This document shows positions 4,160-57,855 of a DNA stretch of 64,000 nucleotides, in pieces. The stretch spans positions 558,001 through 622,000 of the forward strand of contig NZ_FOGR01000001.1 in the NCBI RefSeq assembly GCF_900111275.1, written 5' to 3'. A program made the position numbers and the translations under genes. Each line of letters begins with the position of its first letter. Positions within the stretch are counted from its first letter, which is position 1. The notes under the pieces are model-generated. The model saw only the letters and a program-made list of their open reading frames with translations. It was not told where the DNA came from and did no database searches. The stretch comes from Rhizobium sp. NFR03. Lineage in GTDB: Bacteria; Pseudomonadota; Alphaproteobacteria; Rhizobiales; Rhizobiaceae.

Positions 4160-5046
4160 CAGAGACCTCCCCGGCTGAAATTATCCTGCCAAGCAACAAG
4201 CGGCGCTGTCGCGCGCACTAAAAGCGCATCCGACAGCTTGCCGATGATCGCGAAGATCAGGATTGCCGCCATGATCTGGTCCGGCTTGCCCAGTTGCTGC
4301 CCATCCACGAGGAGATAGCCGAGCCCTTCCGACGCGCCCATGAACTCGGCCGCGACGACGAACATCCAGCCGAGCCCGAGGCCAGCGCGCAGCGACACGA
4401 TGAACGCAGGCAGTACGGCGGGGAAAAGAATGCGCCGCACGAGATCGAACCCGCTCAACCGAAAGATCCGCCCGACCTCCACGATCTTGCGATCGACCGA
4501 GAGCAGCGCCGTGGACACACCGAGGTAGACGGGGAAGAACACGCCCGTTGCGATCAGCACCACCTTCGACGTCTCGAAGATACCGAACCAGAGAATGAAA
4601 AGCGGCACCCAGGCAATCGACGGAATGGCGCGCAGCGCCTGTAAAGTTGGATCGACCGACGCATGCAGAAACCGGAAATAGCCGGTAAGGCTGCCCGCAA
4701 GCGCACCGGCTGCGGCACCGGCGAGAAAACCGAGCAGCACGCGAAGACAGGTCGAGGCGATATGATCGGCAAGTTGCCCCGCCGTCCAGAGGTCGGCAAG
4801 CGTGACAAGAATGCGGGACGGCGGCGGGACAAGCCGCCCGCTGGCCAGCCCGCTATCGACCGCAAGCTCCCAAAGAAGAAAGGCACCTGCCGGCAAAGCG
4901 ATGGCAACGGCAAACCGGACGAATGCATGGCCCCAGCGCCCCGTCAAAAAGGTCAGCCGCGACGACCGCCGCGACATGGCAAGCGTTTCCGCTCGCCCGT
5001 CATCGACGCCCACTGCCAGCCCTGGCTCTGCTGCGCCGATGGTCAT
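4159..5046 (-). CDS. ssuC: Aliphatic sulfonate ABC transporter permease SsuC
   Basis: 295 residues with about six hydrophobic segments in the SsuC/TauC/NrtB style. The binding-protein-dependent permease loop is seen as EVGRIFRLSGFDLVRRILFPAVLPAFIVSLRAGLG-type sequence around residues 195-230, and the C-terminal ILIFAIIGKLSDALL is typical. The inner-membrane channel forms a complex with SsuB and receives substrate from SsuA. The start overlaps the ssuA stop (TAATG) and the stop overlaps the ssuB start. The N-terminal 30 residues, before the first membrane span, are polar and somewhat long. Confidence 0.95.
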   Translation of the reverse strand: MTIGAAEPGLAVGVDDGRAETLAMSRRSSRLTFLTGRWGHAFVRFAVAIALPAGAFLLWELAVDSGLASGRLVPPPSRILVTLADLWTAGQLADHIASTCLRVLLGFLAGAAAGALAGSLTGYFRFLHASVDPTLQALRAIPSIAWVPLFILWFGIFETSKVVLIATGVFFPVYLGVSTALLSVDRKIVEVGRIFRLSGFDLVRRILFPAVLPAFIVSLRAGLGLGWMFVVAAEFMGASEGLGYLLVDGQQLGKPDQIMAAILIFAIIGKLSDALLVRATAPLVAWQDNFSRGGL

Positions 5047-45442: not shown

Positions 45443-46777
45443 TTACGCGCGGGTTTCAAGCGTGATGAACGGGCTCTGGGTGGCCGTGCCCTTGTAGGGC
45501 GTCATCGGGTTCGACCAGATGGGCTGGCCGTTGAACCGGTAGACGAAGCGGAAGCACGTTTCGTCGTAGATGAAGCGGACATGGATGGACGACGCGAACT
45601 GCGTCGGACCCTTGTCGATGGCGAGGTACTGCGACAGGTCGACCAGCATGATGTCGCCAGCCGTGCCGAGCGTTGCGGCGTACTCGACGGGAATGATCGG
45701 GCGGCCCATCAGGGTCGCATACTGGCTGCCGTTCGCGCCGGGTGGCGTGAACATGATGGCAGGAGCCGCAATGCCGCCGACATTCTCCGTGCCGGCCGCA
45801 TTCTTCACCTTGATCACGAACTGATAGAGCTGCGGCTCGACGTCCTGGTTGATGACCCAGACGGCATTCTTGCGCGACCGGGCCGGCATGCGGGCCCACA
45901 TCTTCAGGATGTTTTCGGCGACGATGGTGCCAGCCAGCTGGCCGGCTTCCTTCGGGACGGTGATCATCGAACCGCCGTTGAGGAAGCCGAGCGGCATGCC
46001 GGCGCCGGTACCGTTGATGATCGCATCTTCGATCTTGAACAGGAACTCGTCGGCGAAGGCCTGGCGCAGCCACGATTCGAGCGCCGTGGAATCCTGCAGA
46101 AGCTCGTCGGTCGCGTAGCAGAGGCCGGTGAGCTTATCGAGCTCCATCTTGATGCGACGGAACTTCGGCGTGCTGTCACGCTTCAGGCCGGCTTCGGCGG
46201 TCCAGAATGACTGGATGCCACCCCAACGCGAACCATTCGCCCGGCTCGTTTCATCGACGCCATTCATGTGAATGCCGTTGGAGTTCGGGCCGATGGGAAT
46301 GCGACGCACACGACTGGCGATTTCGCCGCCTTCGTAGGTGTTCTGCAGCAGTTCGTTGGAGAAATCGGTCTGCACGAGGAAGCCGCCATCAGCCGCAACG
46401 CCCTCCGACATACCGGTCGGGCCCGCAAAGATCAGCCGGGGGTCGGCATTGCCGCGACGATCGGGGTTGGCTGCACCGGCAATCGCAAGCATCTGTTCTC
46501 CGAGCGAGGAGAACCGTGCCCCTTCCCGCCCCTGGGCATTGTTGCGATCTGCGTTTTCGTTCGGGTCGATCACACTGCCGACGGAGCGTTGACGCTCCAT
46601 CTGGCGTTCGGCGCGAACGATCTGATCGTCGAGAGCGGTCAGCTCGGCAGAGATCGCGTCGTCGCGAGTTGCCTCCTGATCGGTCAGGCCGCGGTTTTCC
46701 GACGCCGCCAGATCGAAAGCGCTCTGCGCCTCCTTGACGAGATCGGCACGCTTCTGGCGAAGAACTTTGATTGTCAT
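45443..46777 (-). CDS. Major capsid protein, HK97 family
   Basis: About 444 residues from the ATG at 46777, whose GGAG site has ideal spacing; an ATG at 46783 is too close. An N-terminal helical delta domain (VLRQKRADLVKEAQSAFDL...EARDDAISAELTALDDQIVRAERQME-like, about 1-65) is followed by the HK97 fold: GGFLVQTDFSNELLQNTYEGGEIASRVRRI, RRIKMELDKLTGLCYATDELLQDSTALESWLRQAFADEFLFKIEDAIINGTG and PAIMFTPPGANG. The delta domain is probably removed by the S49 protease encoded next to it. Confidence 0.93.
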   Translation of the reverse strand: MTIKVLRQKRADLVKEAQSAFDLAASENRGLTDQEATRDDAISAELTALDDQIVRAERQMERQRSVGSVIDPNENADRNNAQGREGARFSSLGEQMLAIAGAANPDRRGNADPRLIFAGPTGMSEGVAADGGFLVQTDFSNELLQNTYEGGEIASRVRRIPIGPNSNGIHMNGVDETSRANGSRWGGIQSFWTAEAGLKRDSTPKFRRIKMELDKLTGLCYATDELLQDSTALESWLRQAFADEFLFKIEDAIINGTGAGMPLGFLNGGSMITVPKEAGQLAGTIVAENILKMWARMPARSRKNAVWVINQDVEPQLYQFVIKVKNAAGTENVGGIAAPAIMFTPPGANGSQYATLMGRPIIPVEYAATLGTAGDIMLVDLSQYLAIDKGPTQFASSIHVRFIYDETCFRFVYRFNGQPIWSNPMTPYKGTATQSPFITLETRA

Positions 46778-46904
46778 GTACATGCTCCGTTGATGAGAGA
46801 ACCGGGCGAATGGGGCGCAGGAAGTCAGCCCACTGTCCCGGCGATCGTGGGGCGCTGAAGAAATGTCGGTTGGATGCGGCCAATCGTGTCAGGGCCGCGC
46901 GGTA

Positions 46905-48035
46905 TCAGCCGTTTCGCGACCGATGGGCATGGCGCCGGCGCCGGAATGCATCTCTATCGCTCTCAGTTGAAGACGGAGCAGCCGCATCGAGGGGGCTATC
47001 GCCTTCCGGCGGCTCAGATGGAGGAATATCCGGGGCAGCGGTAGGTTCTTCCAGTTCGGTCGTCCCGGCCGTTGCATGCAGGATGGTGTCATGATCTGCG
47101 CGAGGGCCAGACGTCGTTTTCATGGAGGCGACCCGGCGCAACGTCTCGTCGAGCGTGGCAACCCGGTCGGCCATGCCGAGCTTGACGGCAACCTTGTCCT
47201 TTTCGACGCGCCCCTCTCCGAAACCACCGACGACGTCAGCAACCTTGACGCCCCGACCGCGCGCAACGTCCGTCGTGAAGTCGCGATAATAGTCGTCGAT
47301 CTGCGCTTGCAGCGCCTGCGTCGCCTCATCCGTCAGCGGCTCGTACTGGTTGCCTTCGACCTTGTACTTGCCGGCCGAGATGAAGGTGAACTTCACCCCT
47401 TGCGCTTCGGCAGCCTTCGAAACATCACGATGCAAGCCGTAGACGCCGATCGAACCGACCTGACCTCCGGGCGTCACGACGATCTCGTCGCAGGCCGACG
47501 CGATCCAGTAGGCCGCTGACGCTGCAAGGCTGTCCACCTGAGCGATGATTGGCTTCTGCCCCCGCGCCTTGAAGATCTCGTTTGCCAAAACCTGCACGCC
47601 ATGGACGTTTCCGCCAGGGCTATTGAAGCGCAGCACGATGGCCTTAACCGAAGCATCGCCCATTGCGTTGCGGAAGCTCCGCATCACGCGCTCGGTCGAC
47701 GTTCCGCCCGGCCCGCTGATGTCGTCGACCTCGGATGCGTGCTGGGCGATGATGCCGAACACGGAAATGACGGCTATCACAGAAGCGACCGGCGCTGGCG
47801 CTCCGCCCTCACCCCGACCAACGATGGCCACTTGATCCAGTGAGGTTGCGCTGAACAGCGTCGCAACGCCGTTCGGCTCACGCTCACCCTTCAGTGCTGC
47901 GATCTCGCTGGGCGACAGACGGATGCCCTCGGCACGTCGCTCCACGACTTCCGCAATCGCTTGAAGCCGGTCGGGTGTGATTGCCCAGGGGTGCTGGACG
48001 ATGGCGGCGTGAAGGTGGGGAAATCTAATTGTCAT
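46905..48035 (-). CDS. S49-family prohead protease (SppA/gpC-like)
   Basis: About 376 residues from the ATG at 48035 (GGAG 7 bases upstream); ATG at 48038 is equally in frame. ClpP-like SppA fold: FNSPGGNVHGVQVLANEIF, then DSLAASAAYWIASACDEIVVTPGGQVGSIGVY with the nucleophile Ser near residue 172, and SAGKYKVEGN with the general-base Lys near 221. It matures the capsid shell inside the prohead. The last 60 residues are Pro/Ser/Glu-rich and may act as a scaffold-like tail. The start overlaps the portal stop. Confidence 0.88.
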   Translation of the reverse strand: MTIRFPHLHAAIVQHPWAITPDRLQAIAEVVERRAEGIRLSPSEIAALKGEREPNGVATLFSATSLDQVAIVGRGEGGAPAPVASVIAVISVFGIIAQHASEVDDISGPGGTSTERVMRSFRNAMGDASVKAIVLRFNSPGGNVHGVQVLANEIFKARGQKPIIAQVDSLAASAAYWIASACDEIVVTPGGQVGSIGVYGLHRDVSKAAEAQGVKFTFISAGKYKVEGNQYEPLTDEATQALQAQIDDYYRDFTTDVARGRGVKVADVVGGFGEGRVEKDKVAVKLGMADRVATLDETLRRVASMKTTSGPRADHDTILHATAGTTELEEPTAAPDIPPSEPPEGDSPLDAAAPSSTESDRDAFRRRRHAHRSRNG

Positions 48036-49338
48036 CATCAGGCTCCGGGGCAATGTCAGAGATTGAAGGGCCGCCGTTATGACCGATCAGGGCGCTGGCC
48101 GTGTCGTCGGGCTGGTGGTTCGGCATATTGTCGGGCGTTGTGGTGTTAGTCGGGACCAACGGTTCATCAAGGCCATCCAGCGGATTGTACCCCAGTGCCT
48201 CACGCGCCTCATTGCGGGTGAGAATACCGTTGAGCACAAGGCGCGAGAAGAAATCCGCCTGCGCTTTGGAGTCCCCCGCGATCAAAGGCTCAACATCGAA
48301 AGCGGCCTCGTAGATGTTCGGCGCGAGAATGAGGTCGCGGCGGATCGCGCCCGTCCAGCAACTCAGCCACGGCATCAGATTGTTGCGCACGAACGCCAGC
48401 ATGATGGCTTCGACGCCAGTGCCCCAAGAGCTCGTCTTGGTCATGTGGTGCAACAGGACGAGCGGCACATCGAACCAGCGCGCAATTTCCTCGATCTGGA
48501 ATTCACGGGTCTGCAAAAACTGCGCTTCCTCGGAATCGAGGCTGATGCTTTCGAATTTGGCACCCTGCTCGAGGATCGGCGTCTTGCTGGCATTGCCCAA
48601 CCCGGAGAAGTTCGCATTCCACTGCGACTTGAACCGCTCGAACGCCGCGTCGCTCATCTGCTTTTCAACGGTCACGACGCCGGAGGGGCGTGCCCCGTTG
48701 GAGAACAGGCGAGCACCGTGCTCTTCGGCTGCAAGCGCCAGGCCGATGGTTTCCCTTGCATAGGCAACCGGGCTCACGCCAACCAGCCCGCCGGGTGCCA
48801 TATGCGACCGGAGATGCAGAATCTCGTCTTGCAGCAGGATCCTGTTTCCCTTGATGGGATCGGCGACCAGATAGCGAATGCTCTGGTCACTCAGCCGCTC
48901 GACATGCACGCGATCGGGGTGGATCGGCTCGAGGCTGTTGGCAAAACCGCGCGGCCCAGAGAGGATCTCGGAATAGGCATTCCCTCGCAGTGCGAGATGC
49001 CCCATCATCATGGCCTTGAAGTCCCATGCCGACTGCCAGTGGTTCGGCTGATACTCCAAAAGATCGTTCAGCGGGTGCGATGGAGCCTCCGAACGTTTCT
49101 TCGTCACAGGGTCGCGCTGATACATTCGCAGCGGAAGCGTCGCGACGGTCTTCGACAAAAGACCGATGCAAGCGTAAGCGGCCGACACACGCATCGCGCC
49201 GTCTTCGGTCACGCGGCGACCGGACAGGCTCATACTGGACACGCCGCCACCATCGTACCAACGATCGTCGTCGGCCGGCGGCGGCTTGCTGTCGGACGAA
49301 GCGCGCACGCCTCCGAGCATCGCCGAGAACAGACCCAT
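48025..49338 (-). CDS. Phage portal protein, HK97 family
   Basis: 437 residues. AMRVSAAYACIGLLSKTVATLPLRMYQRD, HPLNDLLEYQPN, EPIHPDRVHVE, then SWGTGVEAIMLAFVRNNLMPWLSCWTGAIRRDLI and RLVLNGILTRNEAREALGYNPLDGLDE are clear Phage_portal blocks. It forms the dodecameric DNA gate at the head vertex. The C-terminal tail is Asp/Pro-rich. It follows the small membrane gene by 2 bases. Confidence 0.92.
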   Translation of the reverse strand: MGLFSAMLGGVRASSDSKPPPADDDRWYDGGGVSSMSLSGRRVTEDGAMRVSAAYACIGLLSKTVATLPLRMYQRDPVTKKRSEAPSHPLNDLLEYQPNHWQSAWDFKAMMMGHLALRGNAYSEILSGPRGFANSLEPIHPDRVHVERLSDQSIRYLVADPIKGNRILLQDEILHLRSHMAPGGLVGVSPVAYARETIGLALAAEEHGARLFSNGARPSGVVTVEKQMSDAAFERFKSQWNANFSGLGNASKTPILEQGAKFESISLDSEEAQFLQTREFQIEEIARWFDVPLVLLHHMTKTSSWGTGVEAIMLAFVRNNLMPWLSCWTGAIRRDLILAPNIYEAAFDVEPLIAGDSKAQADFFSRLVLNGILTRNEAREALGYNPLDGLDEPLVPTNTTTPDNMPNHQPDDTASALIGHNGGPSISDIAPEPDDDN

Positions 49339-49340
49339 GC

Positions 49341-49535
49341 TTAGCGTCCGCCGCGTACAGTGCCGAGAACGGCAAGGCCGACAAGGATACCGCCAGCGAC
49401 CATGAACCCGGCTGGTGGGTAATGCAGCCAGGCGCCGTAGCCCGACAGGGCGGCGCCGCAGATGCCGATGATCTCGCGGCCGGTCTGGCGATCAATCTTG
49501 ATCGACGATGAAACGGCCTTGGTGTCTTCTGTCAT
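49341..49535 (-). CDS. Small membrane protein between terminase and portal
   Basis: 64 residues. A polar start ([21 protein letters not shown]) and one or two membrane segments ([35 protein letters not shown]). It overlaps the terminase stop (ATGA-type, one base) and is followed by the portal. The role is unknown; small membrane proteins in this slot recur in HK97-like phages. Confidence 0.68.
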
Positions 49536-51271
49536 CAGGCTACCCTCAATCCACGTTCTTCATAGACGGACCGGCCGGCCGCCTCGGGGTTGGTAATCAT
49601 GACCGTGACGGCATCAAAGAGCGCCATGGCCGGGTCGATCTTGGCGTCGCCAGCGTTCTGCTTCGTGGCCCGGATCGCGGTGGCGGTAGGCTCGATCTTG
49701 ATGTTGCCAATGCACCAATCCATCATGCGGCTGGCCGAATGCACGAACGTGCCGTTGGCCAGCTTTCGCTCCGTGGTCTTGATGGCGTTCATTAGCTTGT
49801 AGCCCTGCCCGACGCCCTCGATCTGGCCGCCCTCCGGCGTGATGCCAATCTTAGCAAGCTCCTCAACGAACTCACCGTACGGACCCTCGTTGTCGATCGC
49901 GACGCAGGCGAGCAGCCCGGCCTCGTTAATTTCTTCGATGATCTCGATGATCTCGCTGACGTCCTTCAGCTCGTCGTCGACGATGGTCAGGTCACCATCC
50001 GCCTTGAAATCCAGAAGGGTCGAGGCAATCGACTGGCGCCGATCGAGCACACCCTCATGACACCATGCGCGCGACACGCTGAGCCAGCGCCTCGTTTCCT
50101 TCTCGCGACCGAGTGCTGCAAACCCGAACAAGTCGTCGAGCCCTCCACCGTCGATGCCGACCACGATGACTTCCGAACGCTCCATCAGCGTCTTCATCGT
50201 GAGGGTCGCATCCGCCCGTCGATCCCAGAACTCCGCCCCCGGCCATGCATCGGTCTTGATGCCGATGCCGATCTCGATGTTCAGATGTTGGCTCGCCCAG
50301 TTGCGAATATCACGCTCGCCCTTGACCCGCTCGCCTTCCCAGTCGAGAACCAGACTGTGAAGACGCATTGACCGCCCGAGGTTCGGCATGACCATCCCCC
50401 AGTTCGCTGGGTCCTGCCACTTGAACGGGTCAGTGGCGATATCATCCGGGAACTCATAGAGGATCGGCAACATTGCCCGGATCAGCTTCCCCCGGTAGTC
50501 GCCGTTGCGGATCTTGCGCGCCGTGATCAACTCGTCGCGGAACACGCCGGCGGGCGCCGCAACGCTCTGCGTCGTGATGATGATCAGCAGGCCTTCGGCA
50601 TTTTTCTCCAGGCCGCCGCGGATCTGGCGCATGACCTGCGCCGCATGCGGGTTGCGTCCGAGCAGATGAAGCTCGTCGAGCAGGACGACAACGGGCATGG
50701 AGCCCGTCAGAATGTCCAGCGCAAAAGTTTTCACCTTCATCATCGAGCCGTTCAGAAGATCCTCAATCCGCTTCTCGTGCCAAACGATATGGAAGCGTCC
50801 AGACCGACCGGGGCCGCCGTAGAGTTCTGGCGCCGCCTGAATCATGCCGGCAGCCTGCAGAAAGGCACGGTCGGACACAGACTGCGTCGGCCCGATGAAC
50901 AGCATCTCGGCATTGTGCCGGCGGTTCATCAGCATGGCGACGATGATCAGGCCGCCGCTGTAAGTCGTCTTCGACTGCCCCTTCGGCACAAGCACAAAGA
51001 TCTCGCGGATCATGCGGATATGCTCGACCGGGTCGTAGCAGCCGAAGGCCGCCCGGACGATGCCGCGGAACCATGGCCCGCAGGCGTCGCGCATCTTTGG
51101 CTGGCCGATGACATCCGGCAGGCGAAGCTCGTCGAAGATCTCGACGGCCAAGTCCGCCTCTTCCTCGAACAAGGGCAGATCCGGGATCAGGGATTGACCG
51201 TTGCGGATCCGGTCCTCCCAGTCGACGCAACTCAGATCCCATCCGACGGGCTGGCGGACATGAACGCTCAT
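49535..51271 (-). CDS. Terminase large subunit (TerL)
   Basis: 578 residues. ATPase domain: [15 protein letters not shown] (Walker A variant, Lys in GQSKT, near residue 97), [14 protein letters not shown] (Walker B with DE). Nuclease domain: [16 protein letters not shown] (RNase H-like first Asp), [23 protein letters not shown] and late DAVTVM. This is the Terminase_1 family. It pumps DNA into the prohead and cuts it. It begins directly after TerS. Confidence 0.92.
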
Positions 51272-51272
51272 G

Positions 51273-51764
51273 TCAGTTCAGCTTGTCGCTGTCGGTTGTC
51301 CGCATCGCCATCAGGCGGCCGAGCGGCGTTGCGGTATCCGGCGTGCGAGCGTCCTGCAGGGCCTGCTCCTTCTTGCCCAGCTTCACTGCCTTCTTCGGCT
51401 GGCTCTGCTCGGCGACACGGCGGGCGAAATCGCTGTCGGCAATCGCAGCCTTGTCGATCTTCTTGCCCAGCTCCTTAATCGCCGCCACGTTGCCGGCCTC
51501 GACCTCCTCGTAGAGCCGCAAGAGCACCGTACCCTCCAACTGGAAGCGCGCCGTTTGTCGGCAGGCCAGCTCACGAAAATAATGTTTGCGTAAAGTCGGC
51601 TCTGTGATGCCGAGGGCGGCAGCGATCTCCGCTTCCTTCCGGCCCATCGCGAGCAACAGTCTGACTTTGCAACGCTTTTTGTCATCGACCAGATGAGGCG
51701 GGCGACCCCGCTTTCCCCAGCCTTCGGGAACCTCATCGCCGAAGAGGTCAAAAACAGCAGGCAT
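51273..51764 (-). CDS. Terminase small subunit (TerS)
   Basis: 163 residues from the ATG at 51764 (GAGAGG about 10 bases upstream). The N-terminal GKRGRPPH is an AT-hook-like tract. CKVRLLLAMGRKEAEIAAALGITEPTLRKHYFREL is the helix-turn-helix that recognises the packaging site. The rest (YEEVEAGNVAAIKELGKKIDKAA) is the oligomerisation helix region. It lies just before TerL. Recognises cos or pac. Confidence 0.82.
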   Translation of the reverse strand: MPAVFDLFGDEVPEGWGKRGRPPHLVDDKKRCKVRLLLAMGRKEAEIAAALGITEPTLRKHYFRELACRQTARFQLEGTVLLRLYEEVEAGNVAAIKELGKKIDKAAIADSDFARRVAEQSQPKKAVKLGKKEQALQDARTPDTATPLGRLMAMRTTDSDKLN

Positions 51765-51862
51765 AGAAAAAAAACCTCTCGCTCGCACCCAAGCGGTTGG
51801 GGCCCTAGGACCCTGTGGACTTTCGACCCCCTACCCCCTGTGGCGCATCTGCCACAGTCCGG

Positions 51863-52180
51863 TCAGGTCCGCCCCTCCGATCCGGACATCGCGTTGATGC
51901 CCTGCATAAGACCCTCGACCTCGGCCCTGACCTCGGGCCGGGCATGACTGATGAAGCTGTCTTCGAGGATTACTGTCCCGCGCCGACCGATCAGTTTGGC
52001 GGTGGACGACCGCCTCAGAATACCGATCACCTTGCACCTGCGCGCGACTGCGGGCCCACGTCTTTCTCGGATGCCATTGGCCAGCCAGCGGGCGATGTCG
52101 TTGGTGGCTGTGACAACGATGACATCGCCGTCTGGCAGTGCATCGATGAAAGCCTTGGCCTGATCCATCTGCTCACCCAT
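51863..52180 (-). CDS. Phage hypothetical protein between HNH and TerS
   Basis: 105 residues, coupled to the HNH gene stop (TGATG). QMDQAKAFIDALPDGDVIVVTATNDIARWLANGIRERRG, then VIGILRRSSTAKLIGRRGTVILEDSFI reads like a Rossmann-type alpha/beta fragment (VIVVTATN; TVILEDSF). No P-loop. Proximity to HNH and terminase suggests a part in packaging, unproven. Confidence 0.62.
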   Translation of the reverse strand: MGEQMDQAKAFIDALPDGDVIVVTATNDIARWLANGIRERRGPAVARRCKVIGILRRSSTAKLIGRRGTVILEDSFISHARPEVRAEVEGLMQGINAMSGSEGRT

Positions 52181-52497
52181 CAGAACCGCTCCGCCATCCG
52201 CTTGGCACGCTGCGCCAAGGTCTTAGTCGTATGGCACGAGCCGCAGAGAAGCCTGATGTTCGAGGGATCGAGCAACGGTCCGCCATCTTTCACCTCAACG
52301 ATGTGGTCGCCGAAGATCCGAGTGTTGATCCGACCGCACCCCACCTCTTCGCACCGCCGGCCTCGCTCAGCGATCAGGCGGCTCATCAGCAACCGCCATT
52401 CCGGAGACAGGTAGAAGGCGTCCGCCGTCTTTGGCTTTGGCTTGACAGCGCGGGCGTCGATCTGGCGGATGGATGACTTAATGGAGCGAAGGCGCAT
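52180..52497 (-). CDS. HNH endonuclease next to terminase
   Basis: 105 residues from the ATG at 52497. RGRRCEEVGCGR, then RIFGDHIVEVKDGGPLLDPSNIRLLCGSCHTTKT is a complete HNH zinc-type nuclease: two Cys pairs plus DH and N. HNH proteins next to terminase are needed for cos cleavage in HK97-like phages (known for HK97 gp74). It is the first gene after the terminator at 52505-52535, so its expression depends on readthrough or on a separate promoter. Confidence 0.85.
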   Translation of the reverse strand: MRLRSIKSSIRQIDARAVKPKPKTADAFYLSPEWRLLMSRLIAERGRRCEEVGCGRINTRIFGDHIVEVKDGGPLLDPSNIRLLCGSCHTTKTLAQRAKRMAERF

Positions 52498-52504
52498 ACT
52501 TCTA

Positions 52505-52535
52505 GAACACAAAAGGCGACCTCTTGGCCGCCTCA
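52505..52535 (-). terminator. Intrinsic terminator at the early/late junction
   Basis: On the minus strand AGGCGGCC (52533-52526), loop AAGA, GGTCGCCT (52521-52514) form an 8-bp stem with one G-U pair, followed by TTTGTGTTCT. It ends only about 8 bases before the HNH start codon and 180 bases after the NusG-like gene. Confidence 0.72.
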
Positions 52536-52713
52536 TCGTCTGGTCATAGCTTTCGCACTGGCCCTGAATCGATGCCTCTTATGAGGCTTTCAGGGCTGGG
52601 TCCTACCGGTGTACCGACCCGGAAGCTTTCGCTTCACTCGCCTCTGGTCGCATTGCCATCGGCTCTAGGGCTCACAATCAGGATCATAGGATCGTCCGTG
52701 GGCGAATTGATAC
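52536..52713 (-). promoter_or_regulatory. Structured leader between NusG-like gene and terminator
   Basis: On the minus strand three hairpins follow one another. GAAGC-GAAA-GCTTC (52635-52622) is capped by a GNRA tetraloop. Next come GGGTC...GACCC (52620-52598) with an inner TAC/GTA, and an 8-bp stem GCCCTGAA/TTCAGGGC (52596-52561) enclosing GCCTC-ATAA-GAGGC. Then comes the terminator. No open frame with a start is present. It may be the RNA target of the NusG-like protein made just upstream (inference). Confidence 0.6.
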
Positions 52714-53394
52714 TCACACTTTCTCGACGTCTGCAACATCTAATTCCATCGGCGTGCAACCGTTAAAGATCCTCACTTCAACCCTGATCCTGTTGCGATC
52801 CACATCTTGCGCAAGAACAACGCCGTGAAACCGAGAGAATGGTCCTTCAGTCACAAGAACCGTCTCTCCAACGACATAGCGAACCGGATCAGGGTCACGA
52901 TGATCGTAAGCACCATGATCAGCCTTCTGTATGAATTTGCTCATCAATCTGTCAGGAACACGGTGAACATGCCCACCTCCACCGATCACACCCGAGATAC
53001 GTTTTTGGCTATCGAAGTGCAGCACGCCTTGGATGGCGGAAGCGCTTGGGACACACCGAACGAGGACATATCCGGGGAGAACGGGCAGCGTCGGCGCAGG
53101 GATAACCCTGCCCCTTCGTCTTGTTTCTTCGCCTTTTCGCCTCGGGACAAGGGCATGCACGTCTTCAGACAACAGTGCCTCTTCCACAGCAAATTCACAA
53201 CGGCTCCGCAGTCTGAAGCACAACCATGCAGCCAGATCGGGGTAATCCTCGGCGATTCTCCGACTGGCCGACGCGAGCTGTGAGATCCTGATTCGGTTCT
53301 CACGCCGTGCCTTTTCTTGCTTGAACTCGGCATACGGACGGATCTCGATTGCCTGCGCTTTGTCAAACTCACCGTTCCTATGCTGCATGTTCAT
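52714..53394 (-). CDS. NusG-like transcription (anti)termination protein
   Basis: 226 residues from the ATG at 53394 (GGAG 8 bases upstream), overlapping the preceding gene by 17 bases. After a basic 60-residue extension comes an NGN-type region (AAWLCFRLRSRCEFAVEEALLSEDVHALVPRR..., then PVLPGYVLVRCVPSASAIQGV), and a C-terminal KOW domain: VGETVLVTEGPFSRFHGVV...IRVEVRIFNGCTPMELDVADVEKV. NusG paralogues (RfaH, LoaP) alter RNA polymerase elongation at specific operons. It is the last early gene, directly before a folded leader and a terminator that guards the late operon, so a Q-like late activator role is likely. Confidence 0.82.
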   Translation of the reverse strand: MNMQHRNGEFDKAQAIEIRPYAEFKQEKARRENRIRISQLASASRRIAEDYPDLAAWLCFRLRSRCEFAVEEALLSEDVHALVPRRKGEETRRRGRVIPAPTLPVLPGYVLVRCVPSASAIQGVLHFDSQKRISGVIGGGGHVHRVPDRLMSKFIQKADHGAYDHRDPDPVRYVVGETVLVTEGPFSRFHGVVLAQDVDRNRIRVEVRIFNGCTPMELDVADVEKV

Positions 53395-54601
53395 CGCCCT
53401 GTCTCCGAGTGGTGAGGTAATCCGAGATCGCATCCACGAAGCGCTCAAGGCCAGCAGCGGGCGCTTCACCATCTTCCACGGATGGGAAGTAGATCCATTC
53501 CGCAACGCGCCTGCGGTCAAGCGTGGGCCATCCACGCCGCTGATGCTCCGCCATCCATGCGTCAAAGAGCGGGCTATCCCGATGGACCTGACGGAAGTCG
53601 GAAGCAGCCTCTTCCAGCGCCAGAGGGCAATGCGTAGGGCGCCTGTCGGCTGCACTCTCGTGCATCGCGTTGACAGCTGGCCATCCGAACCGAATGAGCT
53701 TCTGCTCCCTGACCTGGGCCAGCGTCAGCTTCCCAGCTCGGATCTGCGCCTGCTCGAAGCCGGTGGGCCCGGGGATGTTTGTCGCATGTGGCAGCATGAG
53801 TTCTGCGAAGCGTGTTGCCATCCAGAGCTTGCCGAAAGGGCCCGCAACCGCCGACTTCGGCTTGGCCGCCTCAACCGGGTCAGGCGCAGCCGTCCAGAGC
53901 TTTTCCCGAAAATAGGTAGAAGGCGCAGGCACATGCGATTTCTTCTGCGCCTTGAGCATGGCCAGCCAAGCCGGGAACCGCACGGTAGCCTGCTCGCGCT
54001 CGTCATCGGTCAGCTTCATCCAGACGACGAGTGCCGGCTCTTTCGGCATGCCGTCGAAGCCGGGCCAGTTCTTCACCAGCCTCCAGAACGCAGCCTCCGC
54101 CTTTTTCGCATCGCTCAAAGGCTGTTCGTTCTTTTCCGATGCCTCGCGCCCGCCCTCTCTCAAATTTACTGGTTCTCTTACTGGTTCCCTTACAGGGTTA
54201 CTGTCCAGATTCTGGACACGGCTTTCGCCATTTTCTGGACACGGCTCGGGCTGATTTCTGGACACGGCTTCATCAGACCCGTGTCCAGTTTCTGGACCCG
54301 GCTTTTCCGCATTTTGCCGCTCGAATCCGGGTTCGAACGGGAACCGATACCGGGTGGATTCCTGCCGCCGCGTGCCCTTGCTGCGACGCTGCTCACGCGC
54401 AATCAGCCCCGCCGCTTCGAGATCGTTCAGGTGCACGTTCAATGTCGAGCGTGGCAGCTCGCAGTCCTCGGCAAGCGTATCCTGGCTCGGAAAGCACCCG
54501 TGGTCGGGATGGAAGCGGTCACACAGGTGCCAGAGCACAATCTTAGCCGCAGGCCTTAGCCCGCGCTGCTTGATCGCCCAGTTGGTGGCGTCGAAACTCA
54601 T
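53378..54601 (-). CDS. Winged-helix replication initiator-like protein (lambda O-like position)
   Basis: 407 residues from the ATG at 54601 (GAGGG upstream; ATGA overlap with the preceding gene). Residues 1-95 are a winged helix: FDATNWAIKQRGLRPAAKIVLWHLCDRFHPDHGCFPSQDTLAEDCELPRSTLNVHLNDLEAAGLI. A Glu/Pro/Asn-rich linker (about 105-150) follows, encoded by the DNA that carries the iteron-like repeats. The C-terminal part (AFWRLVKNWPGFDG..., LRRVAEWIYFPSVEDGEAP-like) is helical. The layout, with an origin inside the gene, mirrors lambda O. No helicase or primase motif. Confidence 0.75.
   Translation of the reverse strand: MSFDATNWAIKQRGLRPAAKIVLWHLCDRFHPDHGCFPSQDTLAEDCELPRSTLNVHLNDLEAAGLIAREQRRSKGTRRQESTRYRFPFEPGFERQNAEKPGPETGHGSDEAVSRNQPEPCPENGESRVQNLDSNPVREPVREPVNLREGGREASEKNEQPLSDAKKAEAAFWRLVKNWPGFDGMPKEPALVVWMKLTDDEREQATVRFPAWLAMLKAQKKSHVPAPSTYFREKLWTAAPDPVEAAKPKSAVAGPFGKLWMATRFAELMLPHATNIPGPTGFEQAQIRAGKLTLAQVREQKLIRFGWPAVNAMHESAADRRPTHCPLALEEAASDFRQVHRDSPLFDAWMAEHQRRGWPTLDRRRVAEWIYFPSVEDGEAPAAGLERFVDAISDYLTTRRQGDEHAA
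54202..54304. repeat. Iteron-like repeats inside the initiator gene (candidate origin)
   Basis: TTCTGGACACGGCT occurs at 54210, 54233 and 54256, exactly 23 bp apart, and a fourth copy with one change (TTCTGGACCCGGCTT) is at 54290. Inverted TGTCCAG lies at 54202-54208 and 54282-54288, each forming a palindrome TGTCCAG-n3-CTGGAC. The period is not a multiple of three, so the coding frame cannot explain it. The flank at 54157-54200 is AT-richer. Confidence 0.72.
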
Positions 54602-54903
54602 GATGCAGATGCCCTCTGCGCATCCCCATGCGCGATATCGATCAAACCCGTGCGGGCCTTGCGGCGTGCGGCGAGAAGCGCAGCAGGCACCTCGCCGGTC
54701 ATTGGGTCGCGCCGGGCGCTGCCACAGGCGATCTCGATGTCGAGCGCGTCCACGCCCCACTGGCAGCCACAGGAACGCAGGATGGCGCGTATGGAGATCA
54801 TCTCGCGAACAAGGATGCAGACCGGCGCTGCCAGCAGCCACGCCGCTCGCTCCGCGCCGTCCTGCGCGTCCGCAAGAAGCTCGACGATAGGAAGATGGCT
54901 CAT
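54598..54903 (-). CDS. Small phage early protein
   Basis: 101 residues, with ATGA overlaps to both neighbours. LPIVELLADAQDGAERAAWLLAAPVCILVREMISIRAILRSCGCQWGVDALDIEIACGS has one hydrophobic stretch and three Cys; a basic end LLAARRKARTGL follows. Unrecognised. Coupling places it in the replication operon. Confidence 0.68.
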   Translation of the reverse strand: MSHLPIVELLADAQDGAERAAWLLAAPVCILVREMISIRAILRSCGCQWGVDALDIEIACGSARRDPMTGEVPAALLAARRKARTGLIDIAHGDAQRASAS

Positions 54904-57509
54904 GCCGCCACCTCGCTTGCGACGGCCGCTGTCGAGCTGGCAGCATCATACAGGAACCCGCCGGGCAGATAGGCAGGGTCCGTTTCCCGACGCTGCAAGA
55001 TCCAGCTTTCGCGCGGGCCGTCTTCGGAGGTATTCAAGCCGAAAGGTCCGTCGTGTAGCTTGACCTTCTTCTTTCCGCCCTCCGTGAATTGCAGCGTGCA
55101 GACGCTTTCCAGATACGACCGCACATCGAGCCCTTCCGAGATCGTTTCGCCATCAAGGTGGCTCACCATGAAGGAACGATAGCCAGTGTCCGAGAAAAAC
55201 GGCTTGTCGAGATCGACCACATGCGCATCGCCGCCGCTGTAACCGAACAGCCCCGAATACTTGAAATCGACGCGGCAACCGAAAAGCTCGATGAGAAAGC
55301 GCCCGGGCTGACCGAACAGCGGCACATCGCCGTCAGGCGCGGCCAAGGCGTCCTTCAGCCAAGTGCTTGCATCATGCAGGCAATTGAACCGCCCGTTCCC
55401 GTCAGGAGGCCCGCCGCCCATGGAATGGAGAGGATCGAGCCCGAAGGCATGTTCGTAAATTGCCCTGATGCGGTCCGCAGCATCCTTCATGTCCCCGATC
55501 GCGCCAGCGCGAACAGCGCGGTCATAGGTCCGCAATTCTTCCCATGCTCGTCCGATCAGCCCTTCGTCATCAGCCGGCAAGGTCTCACGATAGGTCACGC
55601 GCAATGCCCGTTGCGTCTCTCGTTCGATCTCGAATTCGGATCGTTTTGGCGATTTGGGCTCTTTCGGCGGTTTTGGCTTTTTTGGCGGCTTCGGTTCCTT
55701 TGGCGGCTTACTTGCCGCAGCTGACAGTCGCGTGTCCGCCAGAGGCTTTGCCGCAAGCCCCCATTCTTCCATGCGCGCCTCGATCCATTTCAGCCCTGCC
55801 CGCGCCGCCGCCTTGTGCCCGGACGTGCAAACCGTCGAGGCGTCACTGATCACCGGCCGCAGCTGGCCAGCGACCGCCGCCAACCCATGACGAAGGGCAG
55901 ATTCGAATGTGCCGATAGTGCCGGTGAGCGGGCTTGCCCCGCCCCGAAATCCGGCAAGTTCGCATTCCGCCGCAATCGAATAGGTCGCATCGTCGTTGAG
56001 ATGCACCGAGAACCGCGCGAAGGACCCCTTGCGCATGCCGCCAACGGTAAATTCCACCGGCGCATTCTTTCCCGGTCCGGGCGGCAGTTTCGACGCAGGC
56101 ACATCCGGCGCCGGCGCAACTGGATTAGCCGCAGCGTCCGGTTTGTCGACCCCTCCAGCCTCGAAACCCCAGAACGACCAGGTCGGGCCATGGCGCACAT
56201 CCGCGAAGTGAAGGCTTTCTTTGCGCTGGAAGAGCTCCAGCTTCCGCATGTCGGGAAACAGCCTGTCGATCTCTTTCGCAAACCACATCGGCTTGCGGCT
56301 ATGCTCCGTCTTCACCTCGCTGTAGAGGCTCTCCGGCTGCGTCCCCATTTCCAAGCCCGGGAAATCACCCCGCTTGCAGATCAGCAGGTGCTCCGTCCGG
56401 TCCCGCACCCATCGGCCCATGCCGATGTTCACCTTGTCCCAGGTGATGGCCGTCACGTATCGGAAGCCCCACGCCTCAACGATGGAGAGCCCGTCCGCGA
56501 AGCGGTTCGTCGTCACCCAGAAGAACAGCAGAGCATCCGGCGTGAAGGGCGACTGGTCACCGGCACAGAGCGCACGCCCGTCCTCGACGGACATGGCCGG
56601 ATACATCAGGCCCCGGTCTTGCCCCGTAGCCTCGCTCCAAGCCTCCTGCTCCCACGGGAAATCGCAGTAGCCGATCGGAAACGCCGCGCGCGGCATCTCG
56701 CCTGCCGTCACCTTCCCATGCGCCGCGATCGCGTTGATGAGCCCTGTCCGGACCGCACGCTTCGTCGACATCTTTTCGGTGCGGATTTCCTTGGCTTCCG
56801 CCTCTTTCGCCTTATCGACCTCGAACAGGGCCCGGACATAAACTGTCTGCTCTTCCGCCCGCAGGCTCTTGAGCCGATCAAGTACGACGCCCTTGTCGTG
56901 CCGCGTGCCGCGCAGCATGCGCAGCGCCTGTTCCGAGATCTTCTCACCACGCTCGGAATCACGACGAACAGCGCGCTCTGATTGACCGGTAGCTTCAGCC
57001 GTTGCGGTGGCGAAGCTTTTCGAATCCACGTCGGAAAGGTGGCCAACTTGGCCACCTTTTTCATAGCCGCCGCGCCCAGTTGCACCCTGCGCCGTCTCCG
57101 GGTGCTTCATCAGGTAAAGCTCTTTCCGACGAAAAACGAACAGTGCCCTGTCCGCCGGCGTCAGTTCCGCCCGGCAAAGGTTCTCGTCGATCTCCCACAA
57201 CTCGGCATCGAACTCATCTTCCTCGCGCACCACGGCGGCGATCCATTCGCGGCCGAGCTGCCGGACAGCTTCAAGCCGATGCGCGCCAGCCGCCAAAAAC
57301 ATCTGGCGTTGATCATCACCCCCGAGGAACAGAGAAATGGGCGTGCGCAGACCGAGATCCGCGATCGACACCTTGAGCGCATCGACCTTGGCCTGGTCGA
57401 CGCTGCGCAGACGATGCCCGATGATGATCTCGTCGACCCGGACCGCCGTCGCCATATCGCCGCTTCCGGTCTTGATCGAGAATTCGCTTTCCCACACCAG
57501 CTTAGCCAT
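54900..57509 (-). CDS. ParB-like nuclease domain fused to MT-A70 adenine methyltransferase
   Basis: 869 residues. ParB/Srx-like domain at about 20-115 ([71 protein letters not shown]). MT-A70 domain at about 278-450: [11 protein letters not shown] (the usual DPPW is DFPW here), [46 protein letters not shown] and [28 protein letters not shown] tandem KPPKEP-type linker at about 606-630 precedes an unknown C-terminal domain (about 640-869) rich in aromatic residues. Likely methylates adenine in phage DNA, for self-protection or regulation. Confidence 0.85.
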
Positions 57510-57855
57510 CGACGCCTCTATCGATCATGCCGAGCGCGGCAAGGTACGTGTCGAGAATCGTCTCGAATTCCATCCGCTCATTCGGGTCCTGCTTGCGGAT
57601 TTTCAGCACGGCCCGCATGATTTTCGGCTCGAAGCCGGTGCCCTTGGCTTCTGCGAAAACCTCTTTGATGTCGTCGGCCACGCCGGCCTTTTCCTCTTCC
57701 AAGCGCTCGATGCGCTCGAGGAAGCTGCGCAGCTGGTCGGCCGCGACGTTCGGCCCGCCGCTGATGACCTTTGCGCGCGTCTCCCGGCGTTCACTCATCG
57801 CCTCGTCAGCTGGAACAGCCGGGTTTCGAGGGGTGTAGGGGTCGTATTTGCTCAT
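57502..57855 (-). CDS. GapR-like DNA-binding protein (DUF2312)
   Basis: 117 residues. After a polar 30-residue extension, [70 protein letters not shown] is a full DUF2312/GapR domain. Caulobacter GapR binds overtwisted DNA and aids chromosome replication. GGAG lies 7 bases before the ATG, which overlaps the preceding stop (TGATG). The ParB/MT-A70 gene follows with an 8-base overlap. A phage-borne copy may help phage replication or compete with the host protein. Confidence 0.88.

Follow-up and report, generated by a model that had tools for sequence, protein, structure and literature searches.

At the junction between the early and late genes of a prophage in Rhizobium sp. NFR03, the gene of a NusG paralogue is followed by a structured RNA element, an intrinsic terminator, and the first gene of the late operon. 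All coordinates are those of the window, the whole stretch of 64,000 nucleotides that was analyzed. The features of the locus are the following:

53378..54601, minus strand: replication-initiation protein with an HTH, upstream of the paralogue
53394-52714, minus strand: NusG paralogue of 226 aa, the last early gene (ATG at 53394, stop codon 52716-52714)
52716-52545, minus strand: conserved RNA element of 172 nt, from the paralogue stop codon to GCTATG (match to model R1)
52687..52691, minus strand: 5' arm of helix P1, UCCUA (covariation)
52606..52686, minus strand: variable 5' domain within P1 (covariation; tracks the paralogue)
52670-52668 with 52620-52618, minus strand: helix P2, in the variable 5' domain (covariation)
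52635-52622, minus strand: P2b, GAAA hairpin in the variable 5' domain (covariation)
52601..52605, minus strand: 3' arm of P1, UAGGA (covariation; pairing across subtypes)
52561..52596, minus strand: helix P3, 7 bp, enclosing P3in (covariation)
52587-52583 with 52578-52574, minus strand: helix P3in, 5 bp (covariation)
52545..52560, minus strand: P4 tetraloop hairpin CAGUGC-GAAA-GCUAUG, near-invariant in sequence (loop classes)
52534-52513, minus strand: intrinsic terminator, 9-bp stem followed by a T-run (terminator scan and comparative support)
52180..52497, minus strand: HNH endonuclease, the first late gene, likely ATG at 52497 (profile matches)
51273..51788, minus strand: possible small terminase subunit (weak terS matches, a mostly positional label)
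49535..51271, minus strand: large terminase subunit (Pfam TerL_nuclease and TerL_ATPase, both above cut-off)
48025..49338, minus strand: portal protein
46905-48053: protease, after the portal gene
45443-46783: capsid, after the portal gene

The replication-initiation gene, whose start was set where its PHROG match begins, shares 17 nt with the paralogue gene. From the paralogue stop codon to the likely HNH ATG the distance is 216 nt, which corrects the 180 bases given by an earlier reading of the locus from its sequence alone (the sequence-only reading), and the T-run ends 13 nt ahead of the same ATG. The late operon consists of about 30 kb of minus-strand ORFs, and the window holds exactly one copy of the RNA element. 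The early region of the prophage also encodes a GapR-like DNA-binding protein (57502-57855, minus strand; Pfam PF10073, 3e-33) and an 869-aa ORF (54900-57509, minus strand) in which a ParB-like part, weak in Pfam and clear as PHROG 3264, is fused to an MT-A70 methyltransferase.

The paralogue has the NGN and KOW domains of the NusG/Spt5 superfamily. It matches Pfam NusG above the gathering score (4.6e-11) and, over residues 52-226, the PHROG 6386 profile “transcription antiterminator” (1.7e-29); its KOW part is weak by sequence, with 12.9 bits against a cut-off of 22.3. An AlphaFold2 model calculated from an 82-sequence alignment has a pLDDT of 92.9 and comprises an N-terminal extension with a helix at 20-42, an NGN domain at 54-160, and a KOW barrel at 169-226, the first 20 residues being of lower certainty. 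In structure comparison, the model resembles the NGN domains of NusG and RfaH and the KOW domain of NusG. These profile matches and the predicted structure bear out the claim that a NusG paralogue with both domains is the last early gene. Among the named subfamilies of NCBIfam, the protein scores below the cut-offs of housekeeping NusG (TIGR00922, 60.1 bits versus 135.7), LoaP (NF033641, 23.5 versus 125), RfaH (TIGR01955, 26.7 versus 144.5), and UpxY (NF033644, 46 versus 100). A second NusG match is present in the host genome at G000:C17. In the alignment, the N-terminal extension opens with a common MQH(K/R) motif, its positions 33-36 and 45-46 are basic in about half of the sequences, and NGN positions 93, 94, and 96 are basic in 79-90%; these basic residues of the extension and the NGN domain are candidate RNA contacts.

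The segment behind the paralogue gene (52500-52713, minus strand) folds at -82.7 kcal/mol with a z of -3.85, and 0 of 200 dinucleotide shuffles are as stable, which upholds the folded leader described before. Model R1 scores the window element at 166.5 bits, the window sequence being itself in the model. Among 133 listed elements the length ranges from 112 to 208 nt, and the plan of the RNA is a long-range helix (P1), a variable inner domain, and a conserved 3' module of two hairpins (P3-P4).

The helices are supported by covariation in three alignments. Alignment A1 contains 26 diverse elements of the window's subtype, aligned by sequence only and drawn from 65 subtype elements, of which 27 were left at 85% identity and one (L008, of another subtype) was removed. 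Over the 24 pairs counted, 94.9% of cells are paired, with double-sided changes at 14 pairs. The covariation score is 0.392; shuffles give 0.170, with none of 500 as high, and slid partners 0.02-0.14 (maximum 0.141). The structures were drawn with the aligned sequences in view, which favors this score somewhat. The inner helices of one subclass score 0.370 versus 0.158 in alignment A4, made of the 28 of 30 sequences that could be trimmed by regular expression. For P3 and P3in the values are 0.250 and 0.113 in alignment A2, where P3in is paired in just 67%; it holds 18 diverse 3' modules, 13 of the 15 from an 80% cut (L157 and L169 omitted) and five picked by hand. P1, formed by element positions 26-30 with 112-116, is paired in 130 of 130 cells of A1 and has double-sided changes at all 5 of its pairs. 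Across subtypes it is perfect in 93 of 105 elements, with 25 combinations of arms, while shuffled arms give a mean of 19.3 and a maximum of 30 perfect helices; 28 of the 133 elements, with no arm located by regular expression, are outside this count, and the 3' arm was taken as the best of few candidates, a slight bias toward pairing. Compensatory changes, which the sequence-only reading had proposed to look for by alignment, thus conserve the stems in A1, A4, and A2 and in P1 across subtypes. The P4 pairs are invariant in the alignments, so that covariation is silent on them. Its loops are of two kinds among the 133 listed elements, GNNA (93) and UNCN (39), with a single exception, which suggests an RNA tetraloop.

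Three hairpins had been read from the sequence. Two are conserved, namely the GAAA hairpin (52635-52622) and the stem of 7-8 bp that encloses one of 5 bp (52596-52561). The third, the GGGUC/GACCC hairpin of the minimum-energy fold (52620-52598), is not: 73.8% of its cells are paired versus 72.5% in shuffles, and its bases belong instead to P1 and P2, both of which covary. Two features had been overlooked: P1, with its long-range pairing, and the terminal hairpin P4.

No covariance model of Rfam 15 matches over the window element at E<=5 or, at E<=0.5, over the element of 12 relatives that represent several subtypes, the weak matches obtained falling outside the element; nor was a description of this RNA found in Rfam 15 or in the open-licence literature. 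For a boxA-like core, the best match in the window element is 5 of 8, and the 133 listed elements have no excess above shuffles; the core scanned for is the E. coli version, from which the boxA of the host may presumably differ. On the minus strand of one locus, L041 (about 1335-1394), P3 has given way to a GC-rich helix unrelated to it, GGAGAAGC/GCTTCTCC, a helix exchange with the flanking motifs retained. In phage PPF1 (L287, 4643-4795), a hypothetical protein, PPF1_92, is annotated within the RNA element and is probably a spurious ORF.

Relatives were collected from both the protein and the RNA side. A protein search (E<=1e-20) of 394 genomes of the host family gives 25 places, distributed over 21 genomes; one place (L010) looks like a housekeeping nusG. 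In the 3' flanks of these and other matches, strongly conserved sequence lies directly behind the stop codon. The motif of the element's 3' end, GAYTHANNNNCAGTGCNNNNGCTRTG, was scanned without regard to context over viral and genome contigs and yielded at least 120 stretches of viral and at least 116 of genome contigs. At least 255 motif matches are found over 285 loci, 49 of which came from the protein searches. In 174 of the 255 listed matches, a NusG-like ORF ends 60-260 nt upstream, and 81 are without a NusG hit. Inspection covered 39 of these 81, in which 6-7 of the 7 stem positions pair: 16 look like elements truncated near the end of the locus and 23 like chance matches, many of them in ABC-transporter genes. 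With identical sequences removed, there are at least 133 distinct elements with a paralogue, that of the window included; 94 of those listed occur in viral loci, 49 in genome loci, and 5 in protein-search loci only. They derive from phages, prophages, and viral contigs, and six named phages carry the element (Rivra, PPF1, phi2LM21, phi3LM21, vB_MseS-P1, and Nsp-JY10).

The linkage between RNA and paralogue is close. R2, a covariance model of the 3' module with 62 positions, has 29 hits among 247 host-family genomes, spread over 26 of them, with a gap in the scores between 39.8 and 28 bits. All 25 hits at or above 39.8 bits lie 55-116 nt behind the stop codon of a paralogue, while none of the 7 weaker hits (28 bits or less; 4 in the family, 3 in the class) is so placed. 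Eight of the strong hits belong to the sequences that make up the model, and the majority were already known from the protein searches; five (L298, L305, L308, L311, and L312) are new to those searches, and all five have a paralogue. The four weak hits in the family (L314-L317) were rejected for want of an upstream paralogue. Conversely, of the 25 protein-search places, 22 have a strong R2 hit, L041 has a weak one and only a diverged element, L040 has none, and the remaining one is L010. At L040, the paralogue is present without a recognizable element in its 3' flank.

The cassette is, in the genomes sampled, confined to the host family. Among 297 genomes of the order, R2 finds two positives, both from the host family and none from another, and among 337 genomes of the class it finds the element in the host alone, the three weak hits (28 bits or less) being without a paralogue; both searches used stricter filters, by which weak matches can be lost. 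Outside the family, the protein profile gives matches of 127-135 bits only, versus 255 for the window protein, and these begin at profile position 18-51; they are taken as housekeeping NusG.

Small RNAs derived from 3' ends often have this layout, a structured RNA that ends in a terminator directly behind a coding gene. The element could therefore be a stable small RNA that is released from the tail of the early transcript and acts in trans. In 11 phage or viral records searched over their full length there is exactly one element apiece, though, always at the same junction and co-evolving with the adjacent protein, and some copies have no terminator ahead of the next gene; a small RNA therefore has a very slight chance of being the explanation.

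Co-evolution was measured as the Spearman correlation of pairwise distances over 101 loci with a paralogue, a replication-initiation protein (rep), and an RNA, which are the 133 elements less 21 without a 200-aa protein or readable rep and less 11 near-duplicates. The RNA 5' domain correlates with NusG at a rho of 0.508 (0 of 300 permutations as high) and with rep at 0.033; NusG correlates with the variable part of P3 at 0.314 and with rep at 0.045. The first downstream ORF and the RNA give -0.074 over 85 loci, a weaker control than rep, since homology does not extend to all of these ORFs. The rho of NusG and RNA stays at 0.51-0.53 when the set is dereplicated to 47, 31, and 25 loci, with 0 of 2000 permutations as high in each case. 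Comparisons of selected pairs of loci give the same picture. Where NusG is >50% identical and rep <30% (108 pairs), the median RNA identity is 0.84; where rep is >50% and NusG <40% (130 pairs), it is 0.59, the background. Likewise, RNA identity is 0.82 where the downstream ORF is <35% and NusG >50% alike (140 pairs), and 0.58 where the downstream ORF is >60% and NusG <40% alike (117 pairs). The variable 5' domain thus tracks the paralogue and neither neighbor gene.

Within the paralogue, the signal lies above all in the NGN domain. Windows of 50 residues, taken over the 68 of 101 loci in alignment A3, correlate with the RNA 5' domain at 0.56-0.61 over the NGN region 33-146, 0.47-0.48 over 113-178, 0.36 in the first 50 residues, and 0.24-0.26 at the KOW end. 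The KOW end is closest to the RNA and yet has the lowest rho, the opposite of the order expected from linkage alone. The co-evolution is therefore read as cognate recognition that probably involves the NGN domain, to which other parts may contribute, and it backs the connection that the sequence-only reading had drawn between the paralogue and the RNA.

Two further explanations lose ground here. The first is that the RNA alone acts on the polymerase, as the put RNA of phage HK022 does, and that the paralogue is a general elongation factor next door. According to PMC9378689, put consists of two adjacent stem-loops, about 70 nt, and works free of protein, and the conserved P3-P4 module is likewise two adjacent hairpins; the co-evolution of the 5' domain with the paralogue rather than with its neighbors, and the paralogue at 25 of 25 strong R2 hits, make this quite improbable. 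The second is that the element is a DNA packaging site, cos or pac, as the adjoining HNH and terminase genes might suggest. It is scarcely credible: the sequence tracks NusG and not the downstream ORF (the weaker control noted above), its G-U pairs and GNRA or UNCN loops indicate RNA, and the records of PPF1 and Rivra run on downstream for another 0.6-0.8 kb before they end, although these may not be true ends, the Rivra record being filed as circular.

The intrinsic terminator rests on comparison. In the window, the terminator scan finds 2 sites versus a shuffle mean of 2.9, and in a second comparison 8 versus 8.0, so the scan alone, without excess over shuffles, is no proof. Behind the elements of relatives, however, a terminator by strict rules is found in 88 of 130 cases (3 of the 133 have under 120 nt downstream), compared with 51 of 706 control windows taken downstream and 39 of 650 shuffles that keep the mononucleotide composition, which lends the 9-bp stem at 52534-52513, noted from the sequence before, comparative support. 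Of the 42 elements without a strict-rule terminator, some have visible near-misses, and others, for example L033, L072, L124, L222, and L267, have no terminator visible by eye. Overcoming the one terminator therefore cannot be the whole role of the RNA, which is more constant than the terminator; this constancy is easier to reconcile with a general signal for modifying the polymerase than with an attenuator tailored to a single terminator. The late operon has 4 terminator-like sites on the minus strand in 20 kb, so few that the need for processive action is not obvious.

The RNA and terminator might merely end the early operon or feed back on the paralogue, with the late genes read from a separate promoter, for example one within the first late gene. 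Between 32.5 and 62 kb, the minus strand gave no sigma-70 consensus, in a scan that yielded fewer sites than shuffles and that catches rhizobial phage promoters poorly, and this poor sensitivity, together with the absence of the terminator in some relatives, speaks for a promoter of this kind. Against it, the T-run is followed by the next start codon after a median of 13 nt in the 88 relatives (30 nt or less in 68), too short for a late promoter there. The same 13 nt in the window leave no room between terminator and HNH gene for the strong late promoter that, in the sequence-only reading, would have told against a switch. A promoter within the paralogue gene would still require read-through, and a covarying fold of some 170 nt that evolves in step with the NGN domain would be superfluous for a simple 3' end. 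A separate late promoter is accordingly an unlikely explanation.

The position of the element at the junction is constant. A replication initiator gene lies upstream in 112 of 112 elements, and downstream on the same strand, among 78 elements, are terL in 58, terS in 49, HNH in 46, and portal in 43, with none of the four on the opposite strand; the terS and HNH counts extend to relatives the synteny first noticed here. These counts leave aside 55 of the 133 elements with <3 kb downstream and 21 with <1.5 kb upstream, and their labels are by similarity to reference proteins, which come from the window and the named phages and which, for some terS, were themselves assigned by position.

Taken together, the layout, the covarying RNA, its bond with the paralogue, and the terminator ahead of the late genes are best explained by processive antitermination. 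The probability that the locus is such a cassette, in which a phage NusG paralogue works with a structured RNA in cis, 3' of its gene, is put at roughly three in four. Early transcription would pass through the replication gene, the paralogue gene, and the RNA element and at first halt at the intrinsic terminator. Once enough paralogue is present, its NGN domain would read the variable 5' domain as the RNA emerges, and the RNA-bound paralogue would attach to the polymerase during elongation. The shared 3' module (P3-P4) probably steadies the complex or contacts the polymerase or host factors. The polymerase so modified would pass the terminator and transcribe the late operon. Binding, read-through, a role in timing, and a division of labor between the two RNA modules are all parts that we infer. 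The original idea of a candidate antitermination switch is supported to this extent, its functional step staying an inference, and the observation holds and exceeds what had been described.

Systems of a comparable kind are known. The closest, in principle, is LoaP of Bacillus velezensis with its hairpin: a NusG paralogue that binds the dfn/mln hairpin in the nascent leader and helps the polymerase past intrinsic terminators of long operons (PMC12691694). That hairpin has a UNCG tetraloop and is touched by both LoaP domains (PMC12691694). The combination of a NusG paralogue with an RNA hairpin is shared, P4 having GNRA-like or UNCN loops. The differences are that the window protein reaches 23.5 of 125 bits as LoaP; that its RNA is far larger (112-208 nt), with a long-range helix and an inner domain; that this RNA lies 3' of the paralogue's own gene, at the early/late junction, in phages of the Rhizobiaceae group; and that LoaP uses both domains on RNA, whereas here the co-evolution signal is in NGN and little of it in KOW. 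The LoaP-RNA crystal structure cited in PMC12691694 is absent among the structure matches listed, which excludes nothing.

HK022 put is also a phage RNA that suppresses terminators in cis, with two adjacent hairpins like the 3' module (PMC9378689), but it needs no dedicated protein and serves early promoters, whereas the RNA here has about double the length and is coupled to a protein. In the lambda N/nut system, too, an early phage protein and a nascent RNA site produce a termination-resistant polymerase (PMC7819879); the element here lacks a boxA-like core above shuffles (E. coli core scanned), and its protein is itself a NusG homologue. Lambda Q shares the control of late genes but engages the polymerase at a DNA site within the late promoter, while here the signal is an RNA structure and the junction showed no promoter. 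In Alphaproteobacteria, the Caulobacter gene transfer agent has GafZ, which likewise antiterminates a phage-like cluster and differs in its reported partners, host NusA, NusG, and NusE with the activator GafY (PMC11150451). The term “RNA structure” is absent from the text of PMC11150451, as is the term NusG (0 occurrences) from that of PMC5537653. PHROG 6386, whose “transcription antiterminator” profile the window protein matches, is a family label that brings neither the RNA element nor the mechanism. The kind of system, antitermination by a NusG paralogue and RNA, is known; the large RNA is the part for which Rfam 15 and the open-licence literature gave no description.

A bolder and tentative extension, given somewhat less than even odds, is that the RNA is bipartite, an interchangeable 5' specificity domain for NGN joined to a constant, put-like 3' module for docking on the polymerase, and that protein and RNA move as one exchangeable cassette between unrelated phage backbones, giving each phage a private late-gene switch. 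As to the cassette itself, phages of rhizobia and their relatives have a folded RNA after a NusG-like gene and before the late genes that is probably a read-through switch. If so, late genes in rhizobial phages would be controlled by a NusG paralogue and a large structured RNA, and an own cognate pair in each phage could possibly supply orthogonal antitermination parts. The more than 100 natural protein-RNA pairs offer material for studying how NusG-family proteins choose their targets and for asking whether NGN domains read RNA. One of these pairs, a rhizobial-type element with a NusG paralogue, is carried by the Nostoc phage Nsp-JY10 (L289, about 4637-4795), whose true host may be a rhizobial companion of Nostoc.
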